Source of the DNA: Cytophagales bacterium
GTDB taxonomy: Bacteria > Bacteroidota > Bacteroidia > Cytophagales > Microscillaceae
DNA: 35,721 nt
Direction of reading: 5' to 3'
NCBI GenBank assembly: GCA_013298075.1
Contig: JAAFJG010000047.1
Span: 1-35,721 of the forward strand
How positions within the stretch are numbered: the first letter of the stretch is position 1; each line of letters opens with the position of its first letter. The notes under the pieces were generated by a model. That model saw nothing but the letters and a program-made list of their open reading frames with translations, was not told the DNA's origin and ran no database searches. This document shows positions 229 through 35,474 of this stretch, in pieces. Both the position numbers and the translations under genes were made by a program.

Positions 229-284
229 TTTTTTTGTTTAAAATGTTAATCGTTTTTTTAGTTTCTTTACTTAAAAACGTTTCG

Positions 285-418: not shown

Positions 419-466
419 CAACGTTGTTTTTATAACACCAAAAACCACTATTTTATCTCCATTTTA

Positions 467-1474: not shown

Positions 1475-1492
1475 ATCACTATTTTTTATTGT

Positions 1493-2539: not shown

Positions 2540-2599
2540 TTTTTTTGTGTATTATCTCAAAAAATATAGATTTATGAGTATTAATTCATTCAAAATCAT

Positions 2600-2607
2600 T
2601 ATATTTG
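2600..2607 (+). promoter_or_regulatory. Bacteroidetes -7 box for the glycosyltransferase gene
   Basis: TATATTTG fits TAnnTTTG and ends 36 bp upstream of the ATG at 2644. No TTTG is visible about 20 bp upstream. Confidence 0.55.
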
Positions 2608-2643
2608 CACCTCAAAAGCGTAAGATTTAAAGCCAATTAAAAT

Positions 2644-3642: not shown

Positions 3643-3753
3643 ATTCAAAAATATCAAACTAAAAAAAAATTTTTTCGTATTAAGTTATAATTGAAATGTA
3701 ATTTTTATCTGTAAAATCAGTTATTATAAAAAATCCTAAACATCTCTAAAAAT

Positions 3754-7224: not shown

Positions 7225-7230
7225 AGTTTT

Positions 7231-11758: not shown

Positions 11759-14431
11759 ATGATTTTAAAAAGAATATTTTTATTATTTTCTCTCCTTGTT
11801 TTTTGTAATTTTAATAGTATAACTCTTGATAGAATAACCTCTGCACTCAAATATATAAAAAAAGGAGAATATGAAAAGGCAAAAGTGCAGTTAATGAAAC
11901 AATTAGAAAAAGATAGCCTACATGCAGGTGCATTTCACGTGTTATCTTTGTATTATTTTTCAGAAAAAAATTCCGCTTTTCATCTCGATTCTGCATATTT
12001 ATTTGTTCGAAAATCGATTAAAAATTATCCAAAAACAAATCCAAAAGATTTGAAAGAATGGAAAGACGAAGAAATCACGCCCGAAAATGCAGAAAAACTA
12101 AAAATTGACATCGAAACAAAGGCTTTCGAAGAAGCAAAATCTGTGAATAATGTAGAAAAATACAATATTTTTTTGATAAAATATGCGCAAGCAAAACAAA
12201 AAAATGAAGTCGAAAAATTTCGAGATGAGTTAATTTGGAAAGATATTTCCAAAAAAAATGATTTAGAAACCTATCAAGATTTTTTAGCAAAATACCCAAA
12301 ATCAATTCAAGTTCCGAAGGCAATTCAAAAAATTGATAGCTTGCAAGTCGTGAAGTTTGCTTCGCAAAAAAATGTTTCAAATTTAGAAAATTTTTTACAA
12401 AATTATCCAAATAATCAATATAAAAATTTAGTAATTAAAGATTTATTCGAACTAAAATCTTTAGAACATACGCCAGAAATTTATGAAAAGTTTTTAACAG
12501 ATTTTCCAAATAATATAACAGAAATTGAGAAAGCAAAAATATGGATTTTAAGTTTTGCTTATCAACAAAAAAAATTATACGAAAAAATACAAAAAAGTAG
12601 TTTTACGATTGATAATTATTGGAAAAAATTGAACGAAGAATCTTCTTTTCAACTTATTCCTTTTTTAGAAGATGAAAAATATGGTTTTGTCAATGAAAAT
12701 GGGGAAATTATTATTGCTCATTCGATAGATGAAATTCCTAAAAAATATCATTGTGAAACCATCAAAACTCCTTATTTATTGCATTATAAAAATGGACATT
12801 TTGGCATAGGTGATAGATTTGGAACTATTTGGTATGAAACACAATTTGATAAAATCGAAAATTTAAGTCCTATTTTATTAAAAGTCAGTAAAAATACAAG
12901 TGTGGGCGTAATTCATTCGCTGACAGGCAAAGAAATTTTACCACTCAAATATGATATGGTTGATTTTTTAACGTCTAATTTATTGAAAATTCGTAAAAAT
13001 AGACGTTGGGGATTGGCAGGAATGAATGGACAGATTATTCTCGAACCTACCTTTTCAGACATCGAAACTTTAACCAACGATTTTGTGATTGTGCAATCTG
13101 AAGGGCAATCAATGGTGTGGACAACGAAAGATATTTTGGATTATTATCAGGAAAAAAAGCCTTTAAATCAATCTAAATATAACAAAATCGAGTATGTAAG
13201 TCAAGATTTTATACGATTAAAAAATGAAAGTGGAATGAATATCATGAATAAAAAAGGGCAAATTTTGTTCACACAGTTTCAAGAAAAAATAGAATTTTGG
13301 GAAGATGCAGGTTTTGCCACTTTACAACAAGGAAAATATCAAACGTATGACACAGATGGACAAAAAAATTCGTCTATTCTATTTGATAAAGTCTTGGCTT
13401 TGCCACAAAGAATTGCCGTTAAAAATGGAAAAAAGTGGGGAATTTTGATGCCAAATGGTCGTCCATACCGAGATTTTGATTTAGATTCTGTGGCAGTTGC
13501 AGGCAATTTAATGGTCTGTTGGGAAGGAAAAAAAATATGGGCAGAAGGAAAAAATCAAAAAATAATAGATTTAACAGGTGCAAAAAATTTGAAATTTGAA
13601 AAACCTTTTCTTAACTTTCCAGATTGGTTTTTGGCTTATAATGAACCCAATCAAAAGAAAAATATTTTGAGTAGTACAGGACAAAAATTGCTTTCTGCGG
13701 GAAATTTCAAAGATTATTCTTACCTTTCTCCACAATTTTTGAGCGTATTGCAAAATGGAAAATATGGTTTGGTTGATTCTTTGGGTAGAATAATTATTAT
13801 GCCTCGTTATGATGGAATTTTGACAACGGATATTAATCAAAGAAAAATTTTGTCTTTGGGTGGGAAATTTGGAGTCATTGATAAAAATTCGATGATTGAA
13901 CCTGTTTTTGACCAAGTGCCTCTCCCCTATCAAATTGATGATGAAATCATTGGTTATTTTGGAAAAAAAAAGGATTTGTTTGGGTTGATGAATGGCAAAG
14001 GAAAAAATTTAGTTCCTTTTGAATTTCAAAATTTAATCGTTTGGAATGATAGTGCTGCTTTGGTACAAAATAAAAAAAATGAATGGTTATTTTATTATTT
14101 TTATAAAACGAAAGATAAACTTGTCAAAAGTGAATTTAATCAAGTCAAAATTATCAACCAAAATGATGGCACAAATTCAACAAAAAATACTTATATAACG
14201 GCTGAAAAATATGGCTATTTTGGGATTTGGAACGGTAAAAAAGGTATTATTGTTCCGCCTGATTTTGACCAAATTATTAATATTGGTACTAATGAAAAAC
14301 CATTTTTCTTTGCAGAAAGAAAATCACAAGACAAAAAAAGGTATCAAGTGATGTATTATAATCATATTGGCAAAGAAGTTTGGTCAAAAGTTTTGAATGA
14401 AGAAGATTATTTAAGACTGGTTTGTGAATAA
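11759..14431 (+). CDS. Exported WG-repeat protein with N-terminal TPR-like region
   Basis: 890 residues with a hydrophobic signal peptide (about 1-20). Residues 25-90 look like a tetratricopeptide unit (KYIKKGEYEKAKVQLMKQL). Four looser helical repeats with a FLxxYP-type end follow (YNIFLIKYA, YQDFLAKYP, LENFLQNYP, YEKFLTDFP; about 135-250). From about 306 on there are WG/KWG_Leptospira-type beta repeats (PF14903), for example KYGFVNENGEIII, RWGLAGMNGQIILEP, KYGLVDSLGRIIIMPRYD, KFGVIDKN and YFGIWNGKKGIIVPP. Such proteins are common, function-unknown, probably periplasmic binding or scaffold proteins in Bacteroidetes. It has its own promoter and terminator, so it is monocistronic. No catalytic motif is seen. 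Confidence 0.85.
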   Translation: MILKRIFLLFSLLVFCNFNSITLDRITSALKYIKKGEYEKAKVQLMKQLEKDSLHAGAFHVLSLYYFSEKNSAFHLDSAYLFVRKSIKNYPKTNPKDLKEWKDEEITPENAEKLKIDIETKAFEEAKSVNNVEKYNIFLIKYAQAKQKNEVEKFRDELIWKDISKKNDLETYQDFLAKYPKSIQVPKAIQKIDSLQVVKFASQKNVSNLENFLQNYPNNQYKNLVIKDLFELKSLEHTPEIYEKFLTDFPNNITEIEKAKIWILSFAYQQKKLYEKIQKSSFTIDNYWKKLNEESSFQLIPFLEDEKYGFVNENGEIIIAHSIDEIPKKYHCETIKTPYLLHYKNGHFGIGDRFGTIWYETQFDKIENLSPILLKVSKNTSVGVIHSLTGKEILPLKYDMVDFLTSNLLKIRKNRRWGLAGMNGQIILEPTFSDIETLTNDFVIVQSEGQSMVWTTKDILDYYQEKKPLNQSKYNKIEYVSQDFIRLKNESGMNIMNKKGQILFTQFQEKIEFWEDAGFATLQQGKYQTYDTDGQKNSSILFDKVLALPQRIAVKNGKKWGILMPNGRPYRDFDLDSVAVAGNLMVCWEGKKIWAEGKNQKIIDLTGAKNLKFEKPFLNFPDWFLAYNEPNQKKNILSSTGQKLLSAGNFKDYSYLSPQFLSVLQNGKYGLVDSLGRIIIMPRYDGILTTDINQRKILSLGGKFGVIDKNSMIEPVFDQVPLPYQIDDEIIGYFGKKKDLFGLMNGKGKNLVPFEFQNLIVWNDSAALVQNKKNEWLFYYFYKTKDKLVKSEFNQVKIINQNDGTNSTKNTYITAEKYGYFGIWNGKKGIIVPPDFDQIINIGTNEKPFFFAERKSQDKKRYQVMYYNHIGKEVWSKVLNEEDYLRLVCE

Positions 14432-14945: not shown

Positions 14946-16838
14946 GTGAAAAACGAAAAATTTATTGTGATTGATTTTGACAGCACTTTCACAAAAGTAG
15001 AGGGCTTAGATGAATTAGCCATTATTTCTTTAGAAAATTGTGAAGATAAAAATGATAGAATCGAACAAATTCAAAAATTAACTAATTTAGGAATGGAAGG
15101 GAAAATTAGTTTTCCTGAATCTTTACAAAAAAGAATTTCATTGCTCAAAGCCAACAAAAAACATTTAAAACCTTTAATTGATACGTTAAAAAAACAAGTT
15201 TCTGATTCTTTTTTGAGAAATAAAGAATTTTTAACCAATTATGCAGATAATATTTTATTGATTTCGAGTGGTTTTAAAGATTTTATAGAGCCAATCGTTA
15301 CAGAATTTGGTATTAAAAGCGAAAATATTTATGCGAATAATTTTTTATATGATGACGAAGGAAATATTGTAGGATATGACATAAAAAATGTATTGAGCCA
15401 AGAAAAAGGAAAAGTAAATTTATTAAAATCACTTAATTTGGAGGGTGATGTGTACGTGATTGGCGATGGTTATACGGATTATGAAATTAGAGAAGCAGGT
15501 TTAGCGAATAAATTTTTTGCTTTTACAGAAAATATTGAACGAGAATCAGTAGTCGAAAAAGCAGACCACATCACGCCAAGTTTAGAAGAATTTCTGTATG
15601 TAAATAAATTACCGATGTCTATTTCTTATCCAAAAAGCCGTATTCAAGTACTTTTATTGGAAAATATTCACCCCAAAGCCACCGAAATTTTTAAACAAGA
15701 AGGATATAATATCGAATTTATCAAAGGGGCTTTAGATGAAGACGAATTAGCAGAAAAAATAAAAAATGTGCATATTTTAGGTATTCGGTCCAAAACAAAA
15801 GTTACGAAAAAAGTGTTAGAAAATGCGAATAAATTGATGACAATCGGTGCTTTTTGTATCGGTACAACACAAATTGACCTCGATGCTTGTGCAGAAAAAG
15901 GCATTGTTGCTTTCAATGCACCTTATAGCAATACTCGAAGTGTGGTTGAGTTGGCGTTGGGCGAAATGATTATGTTGATGCGAAATGTTCCTGATAAAAG
16001 CCAAAATTTACATCAAGGAATTTGGGATAAATCATCTTCAAATAGTTTCGAAATCAGAGGAAAAACATTGGGTTTGATTGGGTATGGAAATATTGGTTCA
16101 CAATTTTCGGTATTAGCAGAAAGTTTAGGAATGAAAGTTATTTTTTATGAGGTAGTCGAAAGATTAGCATTGGGCAATGCTACTCCTTGCAAAACTTTAG
16201 AAGAATTATTGCATAAATCTGACGTTATTTCTTTGCATGTAGATGATAGAAAATCAAATTATAGTTTGATTGGCAAACAACAATTTGCTCAAATGAAAGA
16301 TGGAGTTATTTTTATCAATTTAAGTCGTGGATTTGTGGTCGAAATTGATGCTTTGGTCGAAGCCATTCAAAATAAAAAAGTAAGAGGTTGTGCGGTTGAT
16401 GTGTTTCCTTATGAACCAAAAACCAACGATGAAATGTTTGAATCAAAATTAAGAAATTTACCAAATACTATCCTTACACCTCATATAGGCGGAAGTACGG
16501 AGGAAGCACAAGAAAATATTGCTAATTTTGTACCCACGCGGATTATCAATTTTATCAATAAAGGGGATACTTTTGGCAGCGTGAATTATCCAAATTTACA
16601 ATTACCTGAACAAAATAATTCGCATAGATTAATTCATGTACATAAAAATACGGCAGGTATTTTGGCTCAAATCAATCAAGCGTTAGCCAAACACGAAATT
16701 AATATTTTGGGACAATATCTAAAAACCAACGAACAAATTGGCTATGTAATCACTGATATTAACCAAAAATATGACAAAGGAATTATTGAAACTTTAAAAA
16801 ATATTCCTAATACGATTAAATTTAGAATTTTGTATTAA
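14946..16838 (+). CDS. Fused phosphoserine phosphatase-like HAD domain and D-3-phosphoglycerate dehydrogenase
   Basis: 630 residues from GTG. The start is fixed because the HAD nucleophile follows at once (IDFDST, D10 and D12). HAD domain 1-220: motif II SSGF (108-110), K156, and GDGYTD (D174, D178), as in SerB-type phosphatases. PGDH domain from about 232: GYGNIG dinucleotide motif (379-384), catalytic R461 (NLSRG), E490 and H513 (TPHIGGSTEEA). An ACT-like domain at 560-630 (HRLIHVHKNTAGILAQI) probably senses serine. The enzyme would catalyse the first and last steps of serine synthesis in the cytoplasm; the middle aminotransferase (SerC) is not in the window. SerA/SerB fusions of this length are known in Bacteroidetes. 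The phosphatase substrate is inferred. Confidence 0.9.
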   Translation: MKNEKFIVIDFDSTFTKVEGLDELAIISLENCEDKNDRIEQIQKLTNLGMEGKISFPESLQKRISLLKANKKHLKPLIDTLKKQVSDSFLRNKEFLTNYADNILLISSGFKDFIEPIVTEFGIKSENIYANNFLYDDEGNIVGYDIKNVLSQEKGKVNLLKSLNLEGDVYVIGDGYTDYEIREAGLANKFFAFTENIERESVVEKADHITPSLEEFLYVNKLPMSISYPKSRIQVLLLENIHPKATEIFKQEGYNIEFIKGALDEDELAEKIKNVHILGIRSKTKVTKKVLENANKLMTIGAFCIGTTQIDLDACAEKGIVAFNAPYSNTRSVVELALGEMIMLMRNVPDKSQNLHQGIWDKSSSNSFEIRGKTLGLIGYGNIGSQFSVLAESLGMKVIFYEVVERLALGNATPCKTLEELLHKSDVISLHVDDRKSNYSLIGKQQFAQMKDGVIFINLSRGFVVEIDALVEAIQNKKVRGCAVDVFPYEPKTNDEMFESKLRNLPNTILTPHIGGSTEEAQENIANFVPTRIINFINKGDTFGSVNYPNLQLPEQNNSHRLIHVHKNTAGILAQINQALAKHEINILGQYLKTNEQIGYVITDINQKYDKGIIETLKNIPNTIKFRILY

Positions 16839-17554: not shown

Positions 17555-20500
17555 TTATTTTTCAATTTTCACTCTTATTCCTTCTGAAATACTGCTAAAT
17601 TCAGGCGCATACATACATTGAATTTGTGTAATGCCATTTGAAAAATCGCCACTGTGCATAGCACGCAAACTATATTCAAATACAAAAGTTCCTTTCGGTA
17701 AATAACCAATGAAAAAATTCATAGCCGCATCTCTCGGACTTTGATAATATCCCATGCCATCTTGCCAATTATAACCTGAAAGTACAGCCGTTGGCTCAAA
17801 ACCTGAAGCACGCATATCTTTTAAATGCACATATTCCATGGCTCTATCCACTCGAATTTCTACTCGAACTTTTACCAAATCACCCACTCTTATCACATTA
17901 TTAGGAGTAATTTCAGTTAATAATTTACCTTTATCTGTATCTTTTTCGATAAAGAGTTGTTTTTTGATAGATAATGGAGTTTTTGCAGGCGTAATTTTAT
18001 CTAAATTTTCAAAATATTGCCAATAAATAGCACCCCAAGCCACGCCGTCAGCATTTTTAGAAACCGTAATTTTGCCCATTTCTGGTTTTACTTCTTCTTT
18101 ATTAAACGTAGTTTTGAAATAACCTGTGCCTGCTTCAGCCGTTACATTTTTATTTTCGGGAGCATTAGAAATACGTTTATCACCTAATTGAATTTGAACG
18201 GTTACATCTTGCGAAAGCCAATCTTTGCCTTGCAATAAAAGTGCATAACACGCTTCTGCGGTGGCTTTGGTTGTTTTCCAATCTTGCGTTTGTTTTTGTT
18301 TCAATAACCAAGTTTTCAAATCATCGATTATTTTTTCATCTTTGGCAACTTCGGCAAATAATTCAATCATCAAAGCGTGTGTTTCGATAGGGGCTTCATA
18401 CCAATAAAAACCATAACTATCTTTCCAATACATACCCATTTCTTCGTTATTCAAAGATTTTTCTTTCAAAGATTTGATAATGGCTTGCGGAACCACTTTA
18501 TCACCCAATCTATGCAATGCCAAACCAATCATACCTTGTGAATATCGATTGAATTGCAACCAATATTTTTGGGCTTGTCCTTTGTAATAATCGAATGCTT
18601 TTTCGTAAGATTTATCTAATTTTTGAGCAAAAAAACTACGCATATATAAATAATGAATTTGGAAATATGAAATATGTTGGTCGCTTAGTTTCCAATTATA
18701 TTTTTTACAATTATAAACCAATTCATCATAATCTTTTTGCATTTCTCTATCCAAAAAAGCCACCGCTTTGTTAGCAATATTCGTAACTTTTTGATTGCCT
18801 TGCACCGATTCGATATTCAATTTATACAAATGCCCAATGCCACAAGCAATGTGTTGCGTCATATATCTATCCTCTTTCATTCCCTCAAACCATACAAAAC
18901 CACCTGAAGAAACTTGTTTTTTCTCCAATTTTTCGATGGCAGAACTTTGTTCTTTTGCCATTCTGACTAAATCAAATAAAACTCCAATTTGTCTTTTGCG
19001 TTCCCCTTCGTTGTTGGCATTTTTGAGCCAAGGAGTTTCTTCTAAAATGATATTTTTTAACTCTTGATTTTTATCCAAATTAGACAAAAATACTTCAGGA
19101 GTTGCATTTTTCCACGTTTCAAAAGTTTGTTTTATTTTCGGACTACTATTGGCAATATGTGTCGCCAAACTATTCGCATAAAAACGACTAAATACTTGTT
19201 CTGCACATTCATACGGATATTCCATCATATAAGGCAACGCCTGAACAGCATACCAAGCAGGATTAGCAGTAAATTCGACTGTTAATTTTTCGTGTTTTAA
19301 TGTTGATGAACTTCCCGAAGCGAGCAATTTTGGCATCTCAAATTTTTTCTCATTTTTACCACGAATAGGCAATGGCATTGTTTCCGTTACCAACATTCTA
19401 TTGGTCAAAACAGGCAAAGTCATTTCTTCTCCATCAGAAAAATTTCCTGCTTTTGCTACCACTTTGTACGTAACCGCAGGCGTGCCTACAGGAATATTCA
19501 ATTTCCAACTAATGACCGTACTTTGTCCTTTTAAAACTGAAAAATTTTGTTGAGCATTATCATTGCCTAATTCTGTATCTAAACCTTTGGTATTGAATGG
19601 ATTAGATAAAAATAATTGAGCCGTTCCTGTCAAATCTTTGTCAGAAATATTAGTAATTTTTGATTGAAAAACGATTTTATCATCTTCTCTAAAAAATCGT
19701 GGAGCATTAGGCACAACCATTAAATCTTTTTGAGTAACAAGACTTTTTTGTGTCAAACCATATTTCAAATCTTTTGTATGGGCAAAACCAAGCATTTTCC
19801 ATTTTGTCAAAGATTCAGGAATGGTAAATTCTATGATTAGATTTCCCTCTGCATCAGTTTTGAGATTTGGAAAGAAAAATGCCGTTTCATTAAAATTAGT
19901 GCGCACTTTTACACCTTTTAAATCTGCTGGTTTTTTCTGTTCGTTTATTCCACCACTCAAAGCAGTTTTATCTTTTAAAGTAGAAGTTGGCTTTTCAGCT
20001 TTTTCAGCTACATATTCATCAGCTGACATTTTTGCTTCGTCCATTTCTGGTGCTTCTTCTTTATCAGATTCTCTTCTTTTAGAATCTTTTTTTCTTGCCA
20101 CAGAAGGAGATACAGATTTAGACATTGATATTATTGATCTTTCTGCTCGACTACCATCACCATCATTATAATATCGGTTTCTACCATAATAGGCAAAATT
20201 CAACCCATACATATTCAAATCATCATAATCTTTGATGCTGGTATAACTATGATATTTGTTCCAATCATTTTGAATTAAATCAAAATCACCTTTGGTATAA
20301 CTATTATTTCCTTGCCAATTGGTAGGAGCAAAATACATTTCATCAACCGAAAAATTATAGGCGTGTATGCCCGCCAACGCATCAAGCGAAGAATCGTACA
20401 AATTTGCTAACATTTCTGCAGCTACTTTTTCGCCTTTATGTCCTTTTATTTTGATACGCCATTTTTCTTTTTCGCCCGGTTGCAATTTATCTCTAAAAGT

Positions 20501-23500
20501 TTCAAAAGAAATATCTAAATCTTTTTCAAAATTTTCAATATTTACATTGGCACTCCAAAGTTGCAAACGATTATACAAAACATTCGTTAAACGCACATAC
20601 ACAATGCCATTTTTTGCGTTGGCTGGAATAGTATAAGTGAATTTTTTTTGTTGATTGGATATTTTTATCCATTCTTTGTGAATGATATTATTTTCAAATT
20701 CCATTTCAAACAAACCAAAAACTTCTTTTTCTGAACTACTGACAAAAATATCTACTTTTTCGTTTGCTTTTCCTGTTATTTTGGGTGTATAAGCATTAAA
20801 TAAAACAGGCACAACAGGTTTATCGCTATTTTCCTGACGTACTTCAAAATATTTAATATCTTTCACAAGTTGCCCAAATTTATCGGTCAAAGATGCTTCT
20901 AAGATGTATTTTCCTTCTTTCCAATTTTTTAGATTTTCGGGAGAAATATTAGTATTATCGCTCACATCAACCGATTTTTCGAACACATTCGTAGATTTTT
21001 TCCAACTCAAATGATTGTTTTCGTCTTCAAACATATCGTTAGGTAAATCTTTGTGCCAATCTGTTTTTGAATAATTATATTTATCAGGAACTCCTACCCA
21101 AATACGATTTTTATATGCTTTGTTTGGAGTTTCTAATTGATGAATTGTAATTTTTACATTTGCCTTTTCAGGTTGTCCATTTAGATTTTTGACATCAACT
21201 TTCCATTCATTTTTTTGATTTGGATTGATAGTTTCAGCCACTTCGACGTTCAAATCTAAGGCTTGATACCCTACTTTTGCAAAAGTTTTACCTGAGCGAG
21301 TTTCTCCATTTTGGTCAGTAACATCAGCCTCGATTTCATAACTAAAACTTGGTTTGCTTTCTGCGTCTAATTCCAAATCAGGCAAGGCAATAAATTTAAC
21401 TATAAATTCGCCTTTTTCATTGGTTTTTGCTTCTCCAAAACTAATAATTTGTGCAGGCGAACTCGGATAATATCCACGCCAATAATACCAAGAAGGATAT
21501 TTTGCGGTGCGTTTGATTCGATATTTTAAGTTTGCTCCGTCAATATTTGCTCCCGAAAATGCTTTTGCCAAACCTTTCACCAAAATTTCATCGTTTACTT
21601 TATACACTCCTTTCACAGGCTCAAAAGTTACTTCAAATTTTGGACGTTTATATTCTTCTACTCTGATATAATTTTGACCTAAACCTGCAGTATTTCTCAT
21701 ATCATATACTTCCAAAATTTGCCCAACTTTTATAGTTTCATTGGTTAAATTATTCCATTTTTTGATAGCATCAAGCGTTACATTATAAGTTCTTGCAATA
21801 TTATACAAAGTTTCTTTATCGAGTACAGTGTGTTTTGTTTTTTCGCCTGCTTCTGAAAAAGAAATCGTCATTTGTCCTGTCAAACCTGTGCTTGGGAGAT
21901 TAAATTGCCCATTCACCGAACCAAATTCATTAGAAGTCAAGGTAAATTCTTGTACTAATTGCCCATTGACATCTGTCAAAACTGCTCTTACTACTTTGTT
22001 TGGTAAAATGCTCGATTTTCTATTTTCTTTCACCATTACCAACGCTTTAAAATACACGATTTGGCTTGGACGATAAATATTTCTATCCGTAAAAATATGC
22101 ACAAAATTTTGTGAACTTTCAGATGGGTCTTCGTAATAGTTGCTATAACTATATCCTGTTTCTTCTAATTTATCTTTGTTGCTTTCGTCATAAAACTTAT
22201 AAAATCGTTGAGCATATTCATTCGGATTAGAATTAGATTTGAAGATTGCCAAACCATTTTTATCACTAAAAACAGTTTCTTCTAATACGGTTTCATATTT
22301 ATTTTTACTATAATTATAAAAATATTTCCAGCCTTCTACTTTTATTTTTTCTTTGGGTTTGCTATTATTTCTGCTCATCACCAACACGTGATTTTTAGCG
22401 TCTTTTGACGTTTGTGAAACATAAGCAATATCAGAAACTTGTATATTTTGATAAGACATCGCATAGCCATTATAGTCAAATTTTTCGTTATCTGCCGCCA
22501 CAACTACGTAATAACCTGCGGGCAATGCGCCCATTTTTTCTTCAATGTTATGTTTATTATAATCTTTATCATCAGGAAAAGTCGTTTTCCAAGCCTTGAT
22601 AAATTTTGCTTTTTTGAGGTCTTTCGCCATATCTTGTGCTTCGCGATACCCATATTTTCCCATACCCATTTTCGCAAATTCTTCGGGAGTAGATTGTATA
22701 ATTCGCCAATATAAAGTGTTGATATTGGTATAAGAAATACGGACAGGAAAAACGATATTTGTACTGACTACATTTTCTATTTCGATTTGAAATGATTTGT
22801 TTAATAAACTCATTTGCAATGATTTTGCTAAATTCCAGCCTTCTGAATCTTTAAATTTAGACAAAATTTCATTACACATATTAAACGCTTCCGTTTTTTT
22901 ATTTTTAATAGTTGGATTCGAAATAGCATTATAATTTGTGCCTTCCTCAGACAATATTTGTGCAATTCTTACTTTAAATTCTCCCCACGCAGGAATATTT
23001 TGATAAGTATTTGCCATTTTTTCTAATGTTTCTTTGTATAATTTTTTCTTATCTTGAAAAACAGCATTATTATATACAAAAGTAATTCGTATCAAATCTA
23101 AATCGGCTTTTACTTCTGCATTGCTATTATTCAAATTAAATTTAGTTAAATCTTGTAAGATTTTTAAAGCATAAAATTTATAAGACATATTGTCGCTTGT
23201 AGTCAATTCTAAACTGCTAAAACGTTGATTATCAGCCAAATATTCAGGTTTATCAATTAAAAATATTTTCGTAGGTTGCGTAATATCAGCTGTTGCATTA
23301 CTAAAAAACTGCACTGCTCTATGCCCTAAAAAATCGTATAAAGTAGGACGATTTTTACGCATCAAATTATTTCCTTTGTTGATAACTTCATCATACACAT
23401 CAATTTTTACGGCTTGCAATAATTCAGGTTTTTCCAAAGAATTTTTATATTCGACGATACATTGTTCTACAATTTTGCTTAAATCCCACGTTTCAATATC

Positions 23501-23932
23501 CTCATTTTTTACGTTTGAAGCTGTTCTTTGTTGAAATCTCCAAGAATTTCCTTGATAATATTGCCAATAAATATCAGCCAAAATAGAGTGCAATAGCGGT
23601 TTTACGGGATATTGTGCGGTTTCAATTTCCTTTTTAAATTGATTAATACTTGTTACCAACGTATTTTCTTCGACCTCGCGAATGTAAATCATTTTATGTA
23701 ACAATGCTTTGACTTCTTGGGCAGAATTTTTATCCGTTTTTGCTTGTGCGTAGATTTTTTCTACTACTTCGAGAGCGGTTTTTGGCAAGCCTTCATTGAG
23801 TGCTTTATTAACTTCTTCCCATTTTTTTTCGTAAAACTCTTTAGAGTTTTGAGCAAGTATATCAAAATTCATAATTATTGAAATTAAAATAAGTAGCCAA
23901 ACAATTTTGAGTAATTTGAGTATTTTTTTCAT
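17555..23932 (-). CDS. Giant alpha-2-macroglobulin family protein with embedded LysM domain
   Basis: 2125 residues; signal peptide about 1-28 (ILAQ). An N-terminal helical part (~30-370) precedes macroglobulin beta domains. The MG2 block is FVHIFTDRNIYRPSQIVYFKA near 618. A LysM domain is inserted at about 700-745 (HTVLDKETLYNIARTYNVT, ending TIKVGQILEVY), just before the strand IRVEEYKRPKFEV. A charged, low-complexity linker lies at about 1261-1339, followed by the A2M core (ETAFFFPNLKTDAEGNLIIEF). The thioester motif CAEQ is intact: C1576, Q1579 in YPYECAEQ. A terpenoid-cyclase-like helical domain and a C-terminal receptor-like domain follow. Bacterial A2Ms trap proteases in the periplasm by covalent thioester capture. 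No pbpC lies adjacent. The gene has its own promoter; it starts with ATG after a -7 box. Confidence 0.93.
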   Translation of the reverse strand: MKKILKLLKIVWLLILISIIMNFDILAQNSKEFYEKKWEEVNKALNEGLPKTALEVVEKIYAQAKTDKNSAQEVKALLHKMIYIREVEENTLVTSINQFKKEIETAQYPVKPLLHSILADIYWQYYQGNSWRFQQRTASNVKNEDIETWDLSKIVEQCIVEYKNSLEKPELLQAVKIDVYDEVINKGNNLMRKNRPTLYDFLGHRAVQFFSNATADITQPTKIFLIDKPEYLADNQRFSSLELTTSDNMSYKFYALKILQDLTKFNLNNSNAEVKADLDLIRITFVYNNAVFQDKKKLYKETLEKMANTYQNIPAWGEFKVRIAQILSEEGTNYNAISNPTIKNKKTEAFNMCNEILSKFKDSEGWNLAKSLQMSLLNKSFQIEIENVVSTNIVFPVRISYTNINTLYWRIIQSTPEEFAKMGMGKYGYREAQDMAKDLKKAKFIKAWKTTFPDDKDYNKHNIEEKMGALPAGYYVVVAADNEKFDYNGYAMSYQNIQVSDIAYVSQTSKDAKNHVLVMSRNNSKPKEKIKVEGWKYFYNYSKNKYETVLEETVFSDKNGLAIFKSNSNPNEYAQRFYKFYDESNKDKLEETGYSYSNYYEDPSESSQNFVHIFTDRNIYRPSQIVYFKALVMVKENRKSSILPNKVVRAVLTDVNGQLVQEFTLTSNEFGSVNGQFNLPSTGLTGQMTISFSEAGEKTKHTVLDKETLYNIARTYNVTLDAIKKWNNLTNETIKVGQILEVYDMRNTAGLGQNYIRVEEYKRPKFEVTFEPVKGVYKVNDEILVKGLAKAFSGANIDGANLKYRIKRTAKYPSWYYWRGYYPSSPAQIISFGEAKTNEKGEFIVKFIALPDLELDAESKPSFSYEIEADVTDQNGETRSGKTFAKVGYQALDLNVEVAETINPNQKNEWKVDVKNLNGQPEKANVKITIHQLETPNKAYKNRIWVGVPDKYNYSKTDWHKDLPNDMFEDENNHLSWKKSTNVFEKSVDVSDNTNISPENLKNWKEGKYILEASLTDKFGQLVKDIKYFEVRQENSDKPVVPVLFNAYTPKITGKANEKVDIFVSSSEKEVFGLFEMEFENNIIHKEWIKISNQQKKFTYTIPANAKNGIVYVRLTNVLYNRLQLWSANVNIENFEKDLDISFETFRDKLQPGEKEKWRIKIKGHKGEKVAAEMLANLYDSSLDALAGIHAYNFSVDEMYFAPTNWQGNNSYTKGDFDLIQNDWNKYHSYTSIKDYDDLNMYGLNFAYYGRNRYYNDGDGSRAERSIISMSKSVSPSVARKKDSKRRESDKEEAPEMDEAKMSADEYVAEKAEKPTSTLKDKTALSGGINEQKKPADLKGVKVRTNFNETAFFFPNLKTDAEGNLIIEFTIPESLTKWKMLGFAHTKDLKYGLTQKSLVTQKDLMVVPNAPRFFREDDKIVFQSKITNISDKDLTGTAQLFLSNPFNTKGLDTELGNDNAQQNFSVLKGQSTVISWKLNIPVGTPAVTYKVVAKAGNFSDGEEMTLPVLTNRMLVTETMPLPIRGKNEKKFEMPKLLASGSSSTLKHEKLTVEFTANPAWYAVQALPYMMEYPYECAEQVFSRFYANSLATHIANSSPKIKQTFETWKNATPEVFLSNLDKNQELKNIILEETPWLKNANNEGERKRQIGVLFDLVRMAKEQSSAIEKLEKKQVSSGGFVWFEGMKEDRYMTQHIACGIGHLYKLNIESVQGNQKVTNIANKAVAFLDREMQKDYDELVYNCKKYNWKLSDQHISYFQIHYLYMRSFFAQKLDKSYEKAFDYYKGQAQKYWLQFNRYSQGMIGLALHRLGDKVVPQAIIKSLKEKSLNNEEMGMYWKDSYGFYWYEAPIETHALMIELFAEVAKDEKIIDDLKTWLLKQKQTQDWKTTKATAEACYALLLQGKDWLSQDVTVQIQLGDKRISNAPENKNVTAEAGTGYFKTTFNKEEVKPEMGKITVSKNADGVAWGAIYWQYFENLDKITPAKTPLSIKKQLFIEKDTDKGKLLTEITPNNVIRVGDLVKVRVEIRVDRAMEYVHLKDMRASGFEPTAVLSGYNWQDGMGYYQSPRDAAMNFFIGYLPKGTFVFEYSLRAMHSGDFSNGITQIQCMYAPEFSSISEGIRVKIEK

Positions 23933-27762: not shown

Positions 27763-30486
27763 TTAAAAACCAACCAAAACAAATGCTCCCCAAAAATAAG
27801 GTTCACACCATTCAGGGTTATTAAATAATCTTAGTTTTGCTTTTTGCAAAGCCTTTGCATACCCTTCCTTGCTTAATTCATTTCCTAAAAATTCTTCATA
27901 AAAATATTGCATCAATTCCGCAGTTGATTGGTCAGAAACACTCCATAAAGATACATTGATATTTTTCGCACCCGCATATAACAACGCTCTTGTCAATCCA
28001 ATAATTCCTTCGCCTTTTGAGATTTTTCCTAAACCTGTTTGGCAGGCAGAAAGTGAAATTAAATCAGCATTACAACGCATATTATAAATTTCTCCCGCAA
28101 ATAAATTACCATCTTCTTTGTTAGGATTAGCACTTAAAAAAATTTGTGAAAGTTGTGGATTTTCTTCATCAACTACTCCATGGGTTGCCAAATGAATATA
28201 TTTATAATTAAATAATTCTTTAGATTTTATCTGTGATTCGCTTGCATTTTCGTATAAATAAGTTTTTGACAGAATATTCTTTTGTTTAAATAATTCTCCA
28301 ATTCGATTAATTTCTTGAGAAGTTCCTGCCAAATCTGCTAAATATTCTTGCTCAAAAGTAACAGGTGCTAACAAAAATCCACCATGCGATTCTGAATTTT
28401 TCTTTTGATAAGTTTGTATTGCCAAAGTTGCCGAATAACCATAACTAATCGCTTTTTTACGTATCAAAAAAGACATTTCTTTGTATAAAACAGACTCTTT
28501 AGTAGGTTTTGTTAAAAGCACTTCAAAAGGCACAGTTCCCAAACGTCCATCAGGAATTAAAATCAATTTTTCTGCAGGCGTAGAAAATGGAAACAATATT
28601 TTATATAATTTATGGGCATATTTCGAATAAGTAGTTTTGGCTTTATATTGAATCCCGTTGCGTAAAGCACGCATATAACGCACAAAATTAGAATCTATTT
28701 TGACTTCTTTTACTTTATAAACTTTATTACTTACATAAAAAACGAACAAAGTATTGGTTTTTTCTCCCTCAAAATAACTCAAAACTGCCGTATTTTCAGG
28801 TAATTTTTTTTGTAATTCTTCTACAGAAATAGGTTGATTTTGATATTTTAATCGATAATATTCGGGAAATTTCGTTTCTAAATTTTTAATAAAATCGTCT
28901 TGTTTTGTTCTCAACATAAATAAATTTTCTGCTAATTTTTGTTCAATATCAGCCGCTGGTTTTTGTGCCAAAAGTTGTTCATTTTGTGCCAATTCATCAT
29001 TTATTCTTTTTTCTTGTTCCAATAAATTATCAGGAATTCCTGCAAAATGTTTCGCAGAAGTTTCAGAAAGAGCCGAAAGCAATACAGACGATTTACTTTG
29101 TTCAGCAAAATAAAACGCTAATTTTTTATATTTTCTTTTATTCAAACTTACGTCTGCTATCAACAAAGAAGTAGCAATACTTTCTTCATAAATTTCAGTA
29201 GATATTTTTCCCAATGCAATTTTATCTTCTTTATTTTTTCGAGTTTGTCTAATTTGATTTATTAAACTATCTGCGGTTTGTAACGTAAACAAAGCCATTT
29301 TTAACTCCTTGTATTTCAATGTTTTAGACCTATATTTTGTTTTTAAAGTTTGAGATTTTAATAACAAAGTATTTAATTGAATGTCAGGATTATAATAATC
29401 AAATAGCGTTGGATTTTGATAAATATTCGTAGCATTAAATGTTTTACTATTGGCAATTAAAGCCTTTTGATATAGATTTAAGGCGTTATCAAATTGATTA
29501 TTTTGTCTTTCGATAGAAGCCAAAATTCTGTATGTATTCGCTAATTCAGGATGTTTTTCGCCATATTTTTCTTTATAAATACTTAATGCTTCTGCGGACA
29601 AGTTTTTTGCTTTCTCGATTTGATTTTTTTCTAAAGCCAAAAACGCCATACTATTTTTTACGAAGGCAACATTAGGATGTTTTTCCCCCATCGTTTTGAT
29701 TCTAATTGCCAATACTTTTTCTAAAAATGTTTCTGATTTGGAAAAATCATTTTGTTTTTGGTATAATAAAGCCAAATTATTATATAAATTAGCTACGCGT
29801 GGGTGTGTGTTGCCTAATTTTTTTTCATAAATATTAATGGCTTTTTGATAATATTCTGCTGCTTTTTCGAGGTCATCATTGGCATACAAAAGCCCAATAT
29901 CATTATAACTTCCTGCAATTATTTCGTGGTCATCACCATATAATTTTTTACGAATATTTAAGGCTTGATTATAATAATCGAGTGCTTTTTCTTTCTGTCC
30001 CAAATTCCAAAGACTTACGCCCAATAAATTCGAAACATCTGCTTTTTCTTTTAAATTTTTAGGAAATTTTGTATCATATATTTTTAATGCTTCCTCAAAA
30101 TATCTTTGTGCTACATCAGACATACCTTCTTGTAAGACCAATTTCCCTTCTAAAACTTTTTGTTTTACTTGCGAAATTTGGTTTGGAGCAATGGCATCTT
30201 TCACAACATCTAATCTCACTCTCACCGAGTCATATTGGCTTAACTCGATATAATAATCAGCCATTTGTTGGTTACAATCTATCCAATTATCCCATTGCAT
30301 TGATGTTTTGTAGATTTTGATAGCACTTTCTAATTGGTTGATGGCTTGTGAATAATTGCCATTTTTCCAAAGAGAATTTGCTTCTTTTTTTTGCCAAAAC
30401 GCCATTAATGTATCGCTTGGATTTTGAGCATAACTAACAAAAAAATTAAAACAAAAAAGAAAAAAACAAAGTAATAAATAACGCAT
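27763..30486 (-). CDS. Exported TPR-CHAT protein (caspase-like HetF-type protease family)
   Basis: 907 residues. A signal peptide ends near residue 20 (FVSYAQ). Residues ~30-350 are TPR repeats of the kinesin-light-chain type (for example ANLYNNLALLYQKQNDFSKSETFLEKVLAI). A coiled-coil stretch (~480-560) precedes the CHAT domain (~600-907). The clan CD dyad is present: H769 in HLATHG and C815 in LSACQTG, with the family blocks GEGIIGLTRALLYAGAKNI and a C-terminal PYFWGAFVLVGF. CHAT proteins are peptidases related to caspases and separase, with TPRs for substrate or partner recognition; some, as in CRISPR-Craspase, are defence effectors. This one carries a signal peptide, so it is probably envelope-located. 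It stands alone between a promoter (30519) and the 215-residue gene. Confidence 0.93.
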   Translation of the reverse strand: MRYLLLCFFLFCFNFFVSYAQNPSDTLMAFWQKKEANSLWKNGNYSQAINQLESAIKIYKTSMQWDNWIDCNQQMADYYIELSQYDSVRVRLDVVKDAIAPNQISQVKQKVLEGKLVLQEGMSDVAQRYFEEALKIYDTKFPKNLKEKADVSNLLGVSLWNLGQKEKALDYYNQALNIRKKLYGDDHEIIAGSYNDIGLLYANDDLEKAAEYYQKAINIYEKKLGNTHPRVANLYNNLALLYQKQNDFSKSETFLEKVLAIRIKTMGEKHPNVAFVKNSMAFLALEKNQIEKAKNLSAEALSIYKEKYGEKHPELANTYRILASIERQNNQFDNALNLYQKALIANSKTFNATNIYQNPTLFDYYNPDIQLNTLLLKSQTLKTKYRSKTLKYKELKMALFTLQTADSLINQIRQTRKNKEDKIALGKISTEIYEESIATSLLIADVSLNKRKYKKLAFYFAEQSKSSVLLSALSETSAKHFAGIPDNLLEQEKRINDELAQNEQLLAQKPAADIEQKLAENLFMLRTKQDDFIKNLETKFPEYYRLKYQNQPISVEELQKKLPENTAVLSYFEGEKTNTLFVFYVSNKVYKVKEVKIDSNFVRYMRALRNGIQYKAKTTYSKYAHKLYKILFPFSTPAEKLILIPDGRLGTVPFEVLLTKPTKESVLYKEMSFLIRKKAISYGYSATLAIQTYQKKNSESHGGFLLAPVTFEQEYLADLAGTSQEINRIGELFKQKNILSKTYLYENASESQIKSKELFNYKYIHLATHGVVDEENPQLSQIFLSANPNKEDGNLFAGEIYNMRCNADLISLSACQTGLGKISKGEGIIGLTRALLYAGAKNINVSLWSVSDQSTAELMQYFYEEFLGNELSKEGYAKALQKAKLRLFNNPEWCEPYFWGAFVLVGF

Positions 30487-31166: not shown

Positions 31167-33635
31167 TTATTTCAACAAAAAACCGTGTTCATATACTTTT
31201 GTAGCTATTTTGTCTCCGAGTAATTTTAATTTTTCTCTCAAATCACCAATCAATTTTGTATAAGTTTCATCTTTGGCTTTGTGATTCATTTTTCCTGATT
31301 CACTTCTACCTTGAAAATACTCTCGAATATCATACAAACTTGCATTTGCATTATAGGTTTCTATTTCATACGCAGGAAATGTTTGGCTGTGATAATATTT
31401 CCAAAGTTCAAGTCCCGCTTTAAAAACTTCTTTTGCTTCTTTTGAAAATACTAAAGGTATATTTCGAGTGGCTTTTTTTGTTTTGATAAGTGATTTATTT
31501 TCATCATTTTTTAGTTTTCCTGCGATAAATTTCGCCATAAAATCACTTTCAAACCTTTCTTTTGCATCTACTTCGTACTCTGTAAATGGTATCCAATGAT
31601 TTGTACCATCTTTACTCGTTATTCTATTTTGCCCATGAAAAAGTGTAAAAGCTAGACAATTATTTTGAAATTCTTTGTCTTTTTCCCAACTATTTTTTGG
31701 GTATAAAAACTGGTCTCGATCATTCAACCAAGTAGCCTCGATGGACTTACGTACAGCAAAATAAATAGATGTCAATAAAAAATTCACGTCTGTAATCCAT
31801 ACACCATGCCCTACATCAACATAACCACTGCTTTGGGTACGAGGTAGTATGGCTATTTCCATTAAGTTTGCATTTTGAAAATCATTATGTGTTCTTAATA
31901 AAAACCCTATTCGTGAATTAAATTGTATTTTTTGAGTAGGTTTTATCCAATTATTTATATATTTGTGATTATCATAGCAATAAATAGTTTTTTGATTATT
32001 TTTAGATGCATTAGAATTATAAACATCTGCTATTATTCGCTCAAATTTATCTTCTATACTTGCGTCCCAAATAAAAAAACCTATTGGGAACTTACCTCTA
32101 ACATTATCAAAAGTATCAGCAGGCACAATAAAAATTTTTTTGAGCTTTGCTTTATAGACTTTTCGAAAATCTGAAAAATTTGCAGATTGCAAGTTTTTCA
32201 AAGTTGAAAAATTTGCAATTTTACACTCAGGAATTTCATAGTAAATTCGTATTAAAAATTGTGTAAAAAGTTCATTACTTGCTTTACCTATCTTAGTTCT
32301 ATATTTTGAATAAATCTTATTTTCAGTGGTAGTTTTATCCCTATTGCCACCAGTTCCAGATACAGTTCTTGCATTACTCGCCTCCGCATAAGGCGGATTG
32401 ATATAAATTAATAATTTTTTCCTTTTTTCAGGGTCATTGATAATATCTTGTAAAGATTTAGGCAATTTTTTAAAATCATCATTCAAAAAATCAAATTGAA
32501 AAACATTTTTTTCTACTAAATTAGCTCCATTTTTAATTCGGTCATACATTACGTCTACATCTTGTTTATCTAAAGTAGAGGCATAAATATTAAATTTGTT
32601 GGTCAATCCAGCAAGCAAATTGCCTGTTCCTGCGGCACAATCCCAAATATAATATTGATCTTGCCAATTTACGCCCAATGTATCACTGAGGTATTTTTGA
32701 GACAATTCTACCCAAATTTGTGGGGTAAAAAAACTACCTTTTCGCTCTCTCACATCTTGGGGCACGAGCAAATCTCTGCGACCTATAATATAATCCCAAT
32801 ATTCTTTTTTGGGAGGACGTTCATATTTATTCCAAAATTGCGTGTGTGCGATTTGTTTATCTTTAAATTCTGTTTTTTTGCTCCCAAACATTCCTGCTTC
32901 ATCCACTTTACGGTCTAATTCATAATGATTTTTTTTGAGTAACACATATAAATTATCCTTCAAACTTTCATTGTCAGACGATAACAAATCAGCCAAATAA
33001 AAATCTCCATCAATAATACCATTTTTTTTGGCAATATCCCAATTGACAGCAATACTTGGTTTTACGGTTTGTAACCATTTGTTATAAATGGTAATAAAAT
33101 TATTTTTATCAATTTTAGTTTTTGTTAGTCCAAATTTACCAACAACAAAATTATTTTTGATAAAATTTTTGAGTTCTTTATCATCATTTTCATAATAAAA
33201 AAGCAATGCTTGGTTATCAATAATTGATTTTACTTTTTCATGAATCAGTTTAAATTCTCTGCTATTGTGATTTGAGGGCGCAACATTCCAATTAAAATCA
33301 TTGATATAAAAAATATCTTGCATTTCATTGTAAGGTACAAAAGCCATTTTTTCGCCATCAAAAGCAGCCAACATATTCGGTGGCAAAAATTTATCAAATG
33401 TACGTGCTTTGCCAATCGTAAGAATAAGTTGTGTGATTGATTTATAAATATCAGATGAACCTTTTTTTGCTTCAGCCCAAAGTAAAGATTCTTGCTCAAC
33501 ATCTTCTCTCGATTCTTCAAGCATTGCCACACAAAAATCTATATCTCCTATTATTTTGGTACAATTATATACTTCAAAATAATCTTTAGCTATTTTATTT
33601 TTAATTTCTTCTTCTTGGATATTTTGATATTTCAT
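31167..33635 (-). CDS. Type IIG restriction-modification enzyme (nuclease-methyltransferase fusion)
   Basis: 822 residues, cytoplasmic. The N-terminus carries a PD-(D/E)xK-type site: D31/D33 (GDIDF) and E55-A-K57 (WAEAKKG). A helical connector (~60-290) leads to an N6-adenine methyltransferase domain: KGSFFTPQIWVELSQKYL near 299, SAM motif I DCAAGTGNL (332-340) and catalytic NPPY (413-416). Blocks FSTLKNLQSANFSDFRKVYK and GKFPIGFFIWD follow. The C-terminal ~300 residues should hold target recognition. Single-chain type IIG enzymes cut and methylate by themselves, and no separate S or R gene is present, which fits. The recognition site is unknown. It has a strong promoter at 33694-33725 and diverges from the 507-residue gene. 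The first ~25 residues are slightly unusual; the start is supported by the promoter spacing (58 bp). Confidence 0.88.
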   Translation of the reverse strand: MKYQNIQEEEIKNKIAKDYFEVYNCTKIIGDIDFCVAMLEESREDVEQESLLWAEAKKGSSDIYKSITQLILTIGKARTFDKFLPPNMLAAFDGEKMAFVPYNEMQDIFYINDFNWNVAPSNHNSREFKLIHEKVKSIIDNQALLFYYENDDKELKNFIKNNFVVGKFGLTKTKIDKNNFITIYNKWLQTVKPSIAVNWDIAKKNGIIDGDFYLADLLSSDNESLKDNLYVLLKKNHYELDRKVDEAGMFGSKKTEFKDKQIAHTQFWNKYERPPKKEYWDYIIGRRDLLVPQDVRERKGSFFTPQIWVELSQKYLSDTLGVNWQDQYYIWDCAAGTGNLLAGLTNKFNIYASTLDKQDVDVMYDRIKNGANLVEKNVFQFDFLNDDFKKLPKSLQDIINDPEKRKKLLIYINPPYAEASNARTVSGTGGNRDKTTTENKIYSKYRTKIGKASNELFTQFLIRIYYEIPECKIANFSTLKNLQSANFSDFRKVYKAKLKKIFIVPADTFDNVRGKFPIGFFIWDASIEDKFERIIADVYNSNASKNNQKTIYCYDNHKYINNWIKPTQKIQFNSRIGFLLRTHNDFQNANLMEIAILPRTQSSGYVDVGHGVWITDVNFLLTSIYFAVRKSIEATWLNDRDQFLYPKNSWEKDKEFQNNCLAFTLFHGQNRITSKDGTNHWIPFTEYEVDAKERFESDFMAKFIAGKLKNDENKSLIKTKKATRNIPLVFSKEAKEVFKAGLELWKYYHSQTFPAYEIETYNANASLYDIREYFQGRSESGKMNHKAKDETYTKLIGDLREKLKLLGDKIATKVYEHGFLLK

Positions 33636-33950: not shown

Positions 33951-35474
33951 ATGGAAGAGCAACAAGGTTCAGTTAGTCCAAGAGAAAAAGCACGCATTAT
34001 CAATATGGATCCTGTTAGTTACGGAGCATTTGCAGAAATTGGTGCGGGACAAGAAGTAGCCGCATTTTTTTTCAAAGCAGGAGCCGCTTCTAATACCATC
34101 GCAAAAACAATGTCCGCTTACGATATGACGTTTAGTAATGCTATCTATGGCGTAGAAGAAAGTGGAAGATACGTTGGGCAATCACGACTTTTGAAAATGT
34201 TAGATAAAGAATATAGATTGTTAGAACAACGATTAGGAATTAAAAAAGGTTTTGAAAAAGCATTTTTTGCCTTCGCTGATACCGTTACAACTATCAATTA
34301 TCAACGCACTAATCAAGGACATGGCTGGCTGGGAGTTCGCTTTCAATTAAGTCCACAAACTCCTTCTAATGACTTTATCATTCATATAAAAATGCACGAC
34401 AAAGATACGCTTGCACAACAACAGGCGGTAGGTTTGATTGGTGTAAATATGATTTATGCGGCTTATTATTTGAATCACGACCCCGAAAAAATGGTTTCTT
34501 CTTTGATGGACGGACTTTCTTCTGAACGAATTGAAGTAGATATGATTAGAATTTCTGGCCCCGATTTTGAAGATATTGACAATCGTTTATTGAGTTTGCA
34601 ATTAGTAAAATGTGGTTTGACAAATGCCGCTATTTTCGGACCTGATGGCAATGTCATACAACCTTCTGATTTTTTATACAAAAAAAATATATTGGTAATT
34701 CGTGGGCGTTTTAGACCATTAACTTTGGTTAATTTGGATATGTTAAAACGTGGATTCGAACAATTTAGTAAAGATGAAGACGTAAGAAGAGATAAAATTG
34801 AAATTTTAGCAGAATTAACTGTCAAGGATTTAAGAAGTGATAATGGCAAGGGCGATGAAATTGACTACCAAGATTTCTTAGATAGAGTTGATATTTTAAG
34901 CTCGTTGGGTTGTACTGTAATGATTTCCCACTATCAAGAATATTATCGTTTAGTAACTTATTTTTCTGAATTTACCAAAGAAAAAATCGGTTTAGTGTTG
35001 GGTATTTATTCATTGGAACAAATTTTTAATGAAAAATATTACGAAAATTTATCGGGTGGAATTTTGGAATCTTTCAGTCAATTATTTAGTAGAAATGTAA
35101 AATTATACGTATATCCTGCTAATTTAAAAGAAAATCCGAAGGAACTTTATACGTGTAGAAATTTTGAATTGCCCGAAAATCAAATCGATTTATATCAATA
35201 TTTATTGGCAAATGATAAAATCGAAAATATAAAAGATTTTGATAGAAATATTTTACATATTATGTCGGATAAAGTATTGAAAATGATACGAAATAACGAA
35301 GAAGGTTGGGAAGCAATGGTGCCTGATGGCGTATCAAATAGTATCAAAGAAAGAAATTTATTTGAATATCAACCTAAAAATGAAAATACAAATGGAAAAG
35401 CAAAATCTTCTGCCGAATTAGTAGAGGAAGCTTGGTCAAGACTAACCGTTACAAAAGCAACTTCTGAAAATTAA
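33951..35474 (+). CDS. Conserved cytoplasmic protein of unknown function
   Basis: 507 residues, no signal peptide. The N-terminal block ARIINMDPVSYGAFAEIGAG with QEVAAFFFKAGAASNTIAK and MSAYDMTFSNAIYG is highly distinctive. I recognise it from a family widespread in Bacteroidetes and cyanobacteria, whose database names (TonB-dependent receptor, nicotinate-nucleotide adenylyltransferase) seem unfounded: there is no barrel, no TonB box and no HxGH motif. Further conserved-looking stretches are FAFADTVTTINYQRTNQGHGWLG (about 106-128, shown in part), IIHIKMHDKDTLAQQQAVG and VNMIYAAYYL. The central LVIRGRFRPLTLVNLDML has a strand-helix look. Many glycines and conserved polar residues near the N-terminus suggest an enzyme. 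It is monocistronic with a terminator right after it. Confidence 0.8.
   Translation: MEEQQGSVSPREKARIINMDPVSYGAFAEIGAGQEVAAFFFKAGAASNTIAKTMSAYDMTFSNAIYGVEESGRYVGQSRLLKMLDKEYRLLEQRLGIKKGFEKAFFAFADTVTTINYQRTNQGHGWLGVRFQLSPQTPSNDFIIHIKMHDKDTLAQQQAVGLIGVNMIYAAYYLNHDPEKMVSSLMDGLSSERIEVDMIRISGPDFEDIDNRLLSLQLVKCGLTNAAIFGPDGNVIQPSDFLYKKNILVIRGRFRPLTLVNLDMLKRGFEQFSKDEDVRRDKIEILAELTVKDLRSDNGKGDEIDYQDFLDRVDILSSLGCTVMISHYQEYYRLVTYFSEFTKEKIGLVLGIYSLEQIFNEKYYENLSGGILESFSQLFSRNVKLYVYPANLKENPKELYTCRNFELPENQIDLYQYLLANDKIENIKDFDRNILHIMSDKVLKMIRNNEEGWEAMVPDGVSNSIKERNLFEYQPKNENTNGKAKSSAELVEEAWSRLTVTKATSEN

Follow-up and report, generated by a model that had tools for sequence, protein, structure and literature searches.

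A LysM domain nested in an alpha-2-macroglobulin of a Cytophagales bacterium and its possible role at the cell wall

Type I alpha-2-macroglobulins (A2Ms) of bacteria are defined by a thioester and not by a lipobox (PMC5764988). In the portions of the literature drawn on here, bacterial A2Ms are anchored by a lipid or by a partner protein, and a link to PBP1C has been proposed (PMC5764988, PMC4498604, PMC3328433); the pairing of A2M genes with pbpC is frequent and not obligatory (PMC5764988, PMC4498604). What these proteins guard, be it the periplasm, wall synthesis or the membrane, is still debated. This study concerns contig JAAFJG010000047.1 of the Cytophagales assembly GCA_013298075.1, analysed over its 35,721 nucleotides (hereafter the window), which encodes an A2M with a LysM domain lying inside one of its macroglobulin (MG) domains, MG2. 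With the type I proteins ECAM (YfhM) of Escherichia coli and Sa-A2M of Salmonella, the window A2M shares MG domains, a CxEQ thioester motif and export from the cytoplasm. Unlike ECAM-type A2Ms, it has no lipobox and carries an internal LysM.

The LysM domain and its site within MG2

The protein, with a mass of roughly 240 kDa, is a thioester A2M with type I features. An hmmscan search against Pfam-A placed MG2 (residues 611-698, 63.5 bits), A2M (1350-1437, 66.8 bits) and bMG10 (1987-2111, 113.3 bits) above their cut-offs, and the CxEQ motif is present as CAEQ. The bait-region domain A2M_BRD (1055-1161) scored marginally below its own cut-off (22.1 versus 22.7 bits). The protein would presumably trap proteases.

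Residues 701-741 match the Pfam LysM family PF01476 with 40.5 bits (E = 2.6e-10, curated cut-off 20.9), and a LysM scan of the whole genome recovered the same stretch at 46.2 bits as one among 20 LysM matches. A phmmer search with a 48-residue segment led to LysM structures in the PDB, namely Thermus thermophilus P60 (4uz2) and LytE (8i2e), each with E = 2.2e-13. The complete A2M matched four distinct PDB sequences at E <= 0.1, and in all four the LysM segment was the best-matching stretch. Modelled alone with AlphaFold2 on 20 LysM rows (chosen from 26 LysM stretches; 19 belong to viral contigs, the other to a named genome), the domain had a predicted local distance difference test score (pLDDT) of 94.8 and a beta-alpha-alpha-beta order, with strands at 3-8 and 45-50 and helices at 15-21 and 26-32. 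The top Foldseek matches of this model were the P60 LysMs of T. thermophilus (E = 1.1e-4, TM-score 0.83), and a VIA comparison with 4uz2_D gave Z 9.9 and a root mean square deviation (rmsd) of 1.6 over 51 aligned residues. Further VIA matches were LysM-like domains in injection-system and phage baseplates (6j0n, 7aeb, 9qgl), where the role of these domains is structural.

The surrounding region, residues 600-905, was modelled on 64 insertion-free relatives out of 79 named-locus stretches, with a mean pLDDT of 89.5 and a predicted TM-score of 0.65. The two parts, MG2-MG3 and LysM, were modelled separately because free LysM rows added to the MG2-MG3 alignment were misplaced by MAFFT. Despite the lack of homologous LysM rows, the larger model contains the LysM as strand-helix-helix-strand at model positions 99-144 (block-mean pLDDT 76-89), preceded by a strand at residues 686-694 and followed by another at 750-758. 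Of the 97 residues of human A2M MG2 alone (2p9r), 96 could be aligned between model positions 9 and 160 (Z 12.8, rmsd 2.4), across the insertion, so that the MG2 fold begins ahead of the LysM and finishes behind it. The MG2-MG3 model also resembled ECAM, both in 4ziq (Z 14.2, rmsd 6.6, 214 residues aligned) and in 5a42 (Z 14.1, rmsd 7.4, 208 aligned). According to these models, the LysM sits within the hairpin joining the last two strands of MG2; a whole domain is thus accommodated inside an MG beta-sandwich and the host domain is retained.

A preliminary description of this DNA, made from the sequence alone, had recognised an A2M with a LysM at residues ~700-745, located inside a macroglobulin beta domain just before the strand IRVEEYKRPKFEV. 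The Pfam scores of the A2M, MG2 and bMG10 domains agree with the first identification, and the Pfam score, the phmmer matches and the predicted fold with the second. The placement is upheld by the AlphaFold2 model and the 2p9r alignment, which put the LysM between the final two MG2 strands, and both the residues and the strand named there are correct in the sequence. Structure prediction, suggested there as a check, returned a LysM fold and no piece of the sandwich. The coordinates of the gene and its domains are given in Table 1.

Table 1. Features of the A2M gene in the window (amino acid residues, nucleotide positions, strand and basis of assignment)
Feature	Residues	Position	Strand	Basis
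Alpha-2-macroglobulin-family protein with LysM	2125 in total	17555..23932	-	Open reading frame; Pfam A2M, MG2 and bMG10 above cut-offs
Predicted signal peptide, ending ...DILA/Q	1-27	23852..23932	-	Sequence; probable cleavage site at the slash
MG2 (equivalent of bacterial MG4), split by LysM	~608-759	21656..22111	-	Pfam 611-698; AlphaFold2; alignment with human MG2 (2p9r)
LysM	701-741	21710..21832	-	Pfam (40.5 and 46.2 bits); AlphaFold2; Foldseek and VIA matches
Last MG2 strand (GLGQNYIRV), where the host domain resumes after the insertion	750-758	21659..21685	-	AlphaFold2; junction EEYKRPKF kept in relatives
MG3-type domain, boundary approximate	~760-890	21263..21655	-	AlphaFold2 model; ECAM and C3 matches
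Putative bait region, charged, low-complexity, 19% Lys+Arg	~1229-1342	19907..20248	-	Composition; position between BRD and A2M domains
Thioester motif CAEQ (CxEQ)	1576-1579	19196..19207	-	Sequence; motif definition in PMC5764988

Distribution and origin of the insertion

The family of the window genome was sampled with 15 genomes, the window genome included. The query matched all 15, several of them solely through LysMs of other proteins. A LysM at the MG2 site was found in eight A2M genes from seven of the 15 genomes, representing six genera: the window's own genome, G002, G003 (two genes), G004, G005, G009 and G010. Four other genomes of the family hold six A2M genes of this type (two each in G007 and G008, one each in G013 and G014), all with a short hairpin and no LysM at this place. 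The remaining four (G001, G006, G011 and G012) gave no match to an A2M of the window type; the weak match obtained in G006 (E = 9.4e-4) lies in an A2M of a different type, whose N-terminus is lipobox-like. In the family alignment the boundary of the insertion is clean, the flanks on both sides being common to all and the LysM being extra. In an alignment of 11 rows, seven with and four without the insertion, PF01476 matched seven.

Independent copies at the same site in seven genomes of six genera refute the idea that misassembly or a chance similarity only imitates a LysM within an A2M. Nothing was found in its favour, and it can practically be dismissed, given also the open reading frame, a Pfam score about twice the cut-off and the fold prediction.

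LysMs at any position were sought in 97 complete or partial A2M proteins, of which 80 exceed 1800 aa. A hidden Markov model (HMM) built from six LysMs of the window genome matched seven of the 97, all seven from the family of the window genome; the eighth LysM-bearing A2M (L043) was missed by this HMM, but its LysM has a Pfam score of 27.3 bits.

A tree of 27 A2Ms was computed after the LysM had been cut out, apart from a few linker residues left in the LysM-bearing rows. The eight LysM-bearing rows formed one clade, with a Shimodaira-Hasegawa-like approximate likelihood ratio (SH-aLRT) support of 99, and contained no LysM-free row, so the presence of the LysM is explained by one change on the tree. 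The tree was built by a fast method and has no bootstrap values; long branches lead to two outgroup rows, and eight rows deviate in letter composition. As outgroup served 13 named rows chosen from 80; two further candidates shorter than 1500 aa were dropped and the other-type A2M of G006 was excluded. Since the LysM-bearing rows group together with the LysM removed, the tree suggests that the LysM was gained once, in one bacterial family.

Wider samples are in line with this restriction. In the order, class and phylum searches, up to 11 candidates were scored per genome. Among 390 genomes of the order, 220 matched an MG2-LysM-MG3 profile at 1e-10; among the matches listed, which reach E ~3e-13, profile positions 1-126 were spanned only in the family of the window genome (seven genomes), the second LysM-bearing copy of G003 matching over 14-126. 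Most of the other listed rows begin at profile positions 55-75, past the LysM, and some are LysM alone in shorter LysM proteins. Searches of 395 genomes sampled from the class and 395 from the phylum listed no further full-length match; 79 of the class genomes matched at 1e-22 and two of the phylum genomes at 1e-26, the window genome being counted in both. Matches near the LysM columns in other lineages (e.g. G705, G602, G164 and G033) were considered as candidates for the same insertion and rejected, as none of the 12 stretches fetched has a LysM at the MG2 site; all 12, of which 11 are from other families and one is from G014 of the window family, have 85-93 residues between the flanking motifs.

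The window A2M shares with 80 named Bacteroidota loci of its type the MG2/MG3 junction around EEYKRPKF and differs from them by the insertion, which is found in none of the 80: the DR..YRP and EEYKRP motifs are 86-94 residues apart in these loci and 143 residues apart in the window A2M. The named loci are the best 80 of 574 confirmed stretches, and the scan that gave them may leave out genomes near the window's own. These site-level negatives concern the MG2 insertion, and LysMs elsewhere in A2Ms of other phyla were not searched for. Viral contigs queried with the window LysM alone yielded no relative.

Two loci of the family deserve separate mention. In G003, one short contig (C164) carries two A2M frames, 1-5377 and 6579-7389, both matching the window A2M, which suggests tandem A2M copies in this genome in addition to a further LysM-bearing A2M on contig C181. 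In G004 (contig C226, 1522-7881), the A2M gene is split into two overlapping frames, owing either to a frameshift or to faulty assembly.

Across the eight genes, mean pairwise identity is 0.39 in the LysM, compared with 0.45 in MG2, 0.57 in MG3 and 0.63 in the thioester part; the values are 0.30-0.37 for residues 900-1340 and for the N-terminal parts, and only 0.19 for the linker following the LysM. For the closest pair, G009 and G010, the non-synonymous (dN) and synonymous (dS) divergences over 42 LysM codons are 0.22 and 1.69, the dS being rough for so short and saturated a stretch. In this pair dN is 0.28 and 0.33 in the short linkers, and MG3 and the rest of the gene have dN 0.09 and dS 0.9-1.1. 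These comparisons indicate that the fold of the LysM is maintained, yet that it drifts faster than the trap.

The same data bear on the possibility that the LysM is a tolerated, nearly neutral insertion that serves no function and persists in one lineage. Its confinement to one family in the samples searched, its faster evolution and a copy in G003 (contig C164) in which the start of the LysM is degraded would fit such an origin. However, the domain is recognisable in all eight genes despite long branches, its clade has no LysM-free member, dN is far below dS, and the LysM is better conserved than its linker; a functionless insertion is therefore considered very improbable.

Cellular location and possible function

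In all six LysM-bearing proteins with an N-terminus inside the frame, the last residue of the signal peptide is Ala and the next residue is Gln (A/Q), in accordance with the Q-rule for signal peptidase I in Bacteroidetes (PMC5837995). The window A2M has no lipobox, because there is no Cys at the end of its signal peptide, and no tail of the type IX secretion system (T9SS) was found among its Pfam or NCBIfam matches at E <= 1. It is thus predicted to be a soluble protein, probably residing in the periplasm. By a loose pattern, a lipobox-like string is absent from 76 of 80 A2M frames longer than 1800 aa, family loci included. The window genome encodes a second A2M (contig C66, 3203-8800, forward strand) with the thioester motif CLEQ and a lipobox-like string, FITC/G, which is non-canonical since Thr occupies position -1; none of the 20 LysM matches of the genome lies on this contig. 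An apparently lipid-anchored A2M therefore seems to exist alongside the soluble one, and the LysM is on the latter.

Replacement of a lipid anchor by the LysM within the orthologue group was considered and rejected, as four LysM-free relatives (L046, L047, L050 and L051) show starts resembling signal peptidase I sites. L050 is less clear, having a lipobox-like string as well, and L048 and L049 are not judgeable. Because LysM-free relatives that look soluble exist, the LysM appears to be an added part that is not required as a substitute for an anchor.

The explanation favoured here, which is held to be probable, is that of a wall-moored trap: a soluble periplasmic thioester A2M into whose MG2 a LysM was inserted once, mooring the body of the protein to peptidoglycan. 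Retention of the trap at the cell wall by the LysM was proposed in the preliminary description, and this step is plausible because a signal peptide without lipobox is combined with an insertion conserved in eight genes. In structural terms, the LysM would hold the static body of the trap on the glycan chains of peptidoglycan; upon cleavage of the bait region, the thioester arm would swing and capture the protease. Human MG2 corresponds to bacterial MG4 in the E. coli scheme (PMC4498604), and in ECAM MG4 is part of a body that hardly moves when the protease is enclosed by two arms (PMC4498604, legend to Fig. 5). Because MG4 sits in this little-moving body, an anchor to the wall need not impede capture. 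The specific version, in which an A2M without lipid anchor docks through a LysM nested in the static MG body, the arms moving and the body staying bound to peptidoglycan, is put forward more tentatively, at slightly below an even chance.

Binding of peptidoglycan by the A2M LysM, presumed from sequence and model, was considered against the groove of P60 LysM1, formed by Val21, Gly24, Thr26, Leu27, Tyr28, Arg32, Phe50, Leu52 and Gln53 with many main-chain contacts (PMC4356369). In the eight A2M LysMs, Leu27 is kept in all, Arg32 in seven, Val21 and Leu52 in six each, Gly24 and Thr26 in four each (Asn replacing Thr26 in the other four) and Tyr28 in three. The window LysM itself has Val21, Thr26, Leu27, Tyr28 and Arg32.

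Several observations weigh against the mooring of the trap to the wall. Conservation of the known groove side chains is incomplete: Phe50 and Gln53 occur in none of the eight, as is also the case in P60 LysM2, and Lys replaces Gly24 in the window LysM. The LysM changes more quickly than the rest of the A2M, and because LysM-like folds are also present in injection-system baseplates, the fold by itself is no proof of glycan binding. LysM-free A2Ms of the same type in four of the 15 family genomes look soluble where their N-terminus is readable, and manage without a LysM. The lone PF06832 (PBP1C-type) match of the genome lies on contig C68, unlinked to the A2M gene. In addition, the two-LysM P60 binds chitohexaose with a Kd of ~90 uM (PMC4356369), and by analogy the affinity of a lone LysM may not suffice for mooring so large a protein unless the trap oligomerises.

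The variable groove, the baseplate matches and the rate of change together favour the alternative that the LysM no longer binds glycans and acts as a structural or protein-protein module, widening the face of MG2 or holding a partner or second A2M copy. On the other hand, Leu27, Asn45 and Gly55 are kept in all eight domains and Arg32 in all but one. In P60, many contacts are made by the main chain and side-chain mutants lose affinity only about three-fold (PMC4356369), so that side-chain changes of this kind are compatible with binding. This alternative is accordingly regarded as unlikely, at perhaps one chance among several.

Another conceivable role is that the LysM senses soluble or foreign glycans, such as muropeptides, chitin or the wall of prey or rivals, and directs or primes the trap at sites of wall damage. 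LysM sites for carbohydrates are said to be conserved among phyla (PMC4356369), and A2Ms have been proposed to act alongside wall repair (PMC5764988, PMC4498604), both of which would suit such a sensor. However, given an ordinary signal peptide and Pfam and NCBIfam matches that include no T9SS tail, the protein would meet the cell's own wall first, and the data give no sign of sensing. This role is judged improbable, less so than a neutral insertion and more so than a module without glycan binding.

The surroundings of the gene offer few further indications. Among the 10 neighbouring open reading frames (ORFs) scanned with Pfam, no pbpC-type domain was found and no mag-type operon is evident. 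Compared with 11 family loci, some of them on short contigs, the only window ORFs of at least 100 aa that were matched are the A2M gene and an ORF overlapping it in antisense; a shared gene neighbourhood was thus not found. Other genes of the window include one (27763-30486, reverse strand), a few genes upstream of the A2M gene and on the same strand, whose 907-aa product combines TPR repeats with a caspase-like (CHAT) protease domain. On the forward strand, 14946-16838 encodes an apparent fusion of 630 aa, comprising HAD phosphatase-like, phosphoglycerate-dehydrogenase-type and ACT domains, which suggests two steps of the serine pathway in a single chain, and 11759-14431 encodes an 890-aa protein with WG beta repeats. 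Two ORFs, 31167-33635 (reverse strand, 822 aa) and 33951-35474 (forward strand, 507 aa), had no Pfam match at E 0.001.

Comparison with described systems

A LysM within a macroglobulin was not found to be described in full-text literature searches, which did not cover the 2004 survey of bacterial A2Ms (Budd et al.), and the word LysM occurs 0 times in PMC5764988, PMC4498604 and PMC3328433. If true, a wall-moored trap would represent an anchoring solution for the A2M superfamily that is absent from the texts searched and is reached by one domain insertion. As to what bacterial A2Ms guard, a natural copy with a module of a type that binds peptidoglycan points toward the wall. The occurrence of LysM-bearing and LysM-free relatives in one family would, moreover, make trapping and docking separable by one domain.

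The window A2M resembles MagD, the type II A2M of Pseudomonas aeruginosa, in being, as predicted, a periplasmic trap whose location is independent of a lipid anchor of the ECAM type. The placement of MagD depends on its partner MagB (PMC5764988). MagD is described as lacking the thioester and belonging to the mag operon (PMC5764988), whereas the window A2M has CAEQ.

With regard to the inserted domain, the LysMs of the T. thermophilus NlpC/P60 protein (4uz2, 4uz3) and of Enterococcus AtlA (2mkx) have the same fold as the A2M LysM and clear sequence similarity to it. In P60, two N-terminal LysMs are joined by linkers (PMC4356369), whereas the window A2M has a single LysM interrupting another domain. 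The window A2M is therefore a new arrangement of two well-known parts, which in the genomes sampled is limited to one lineage.
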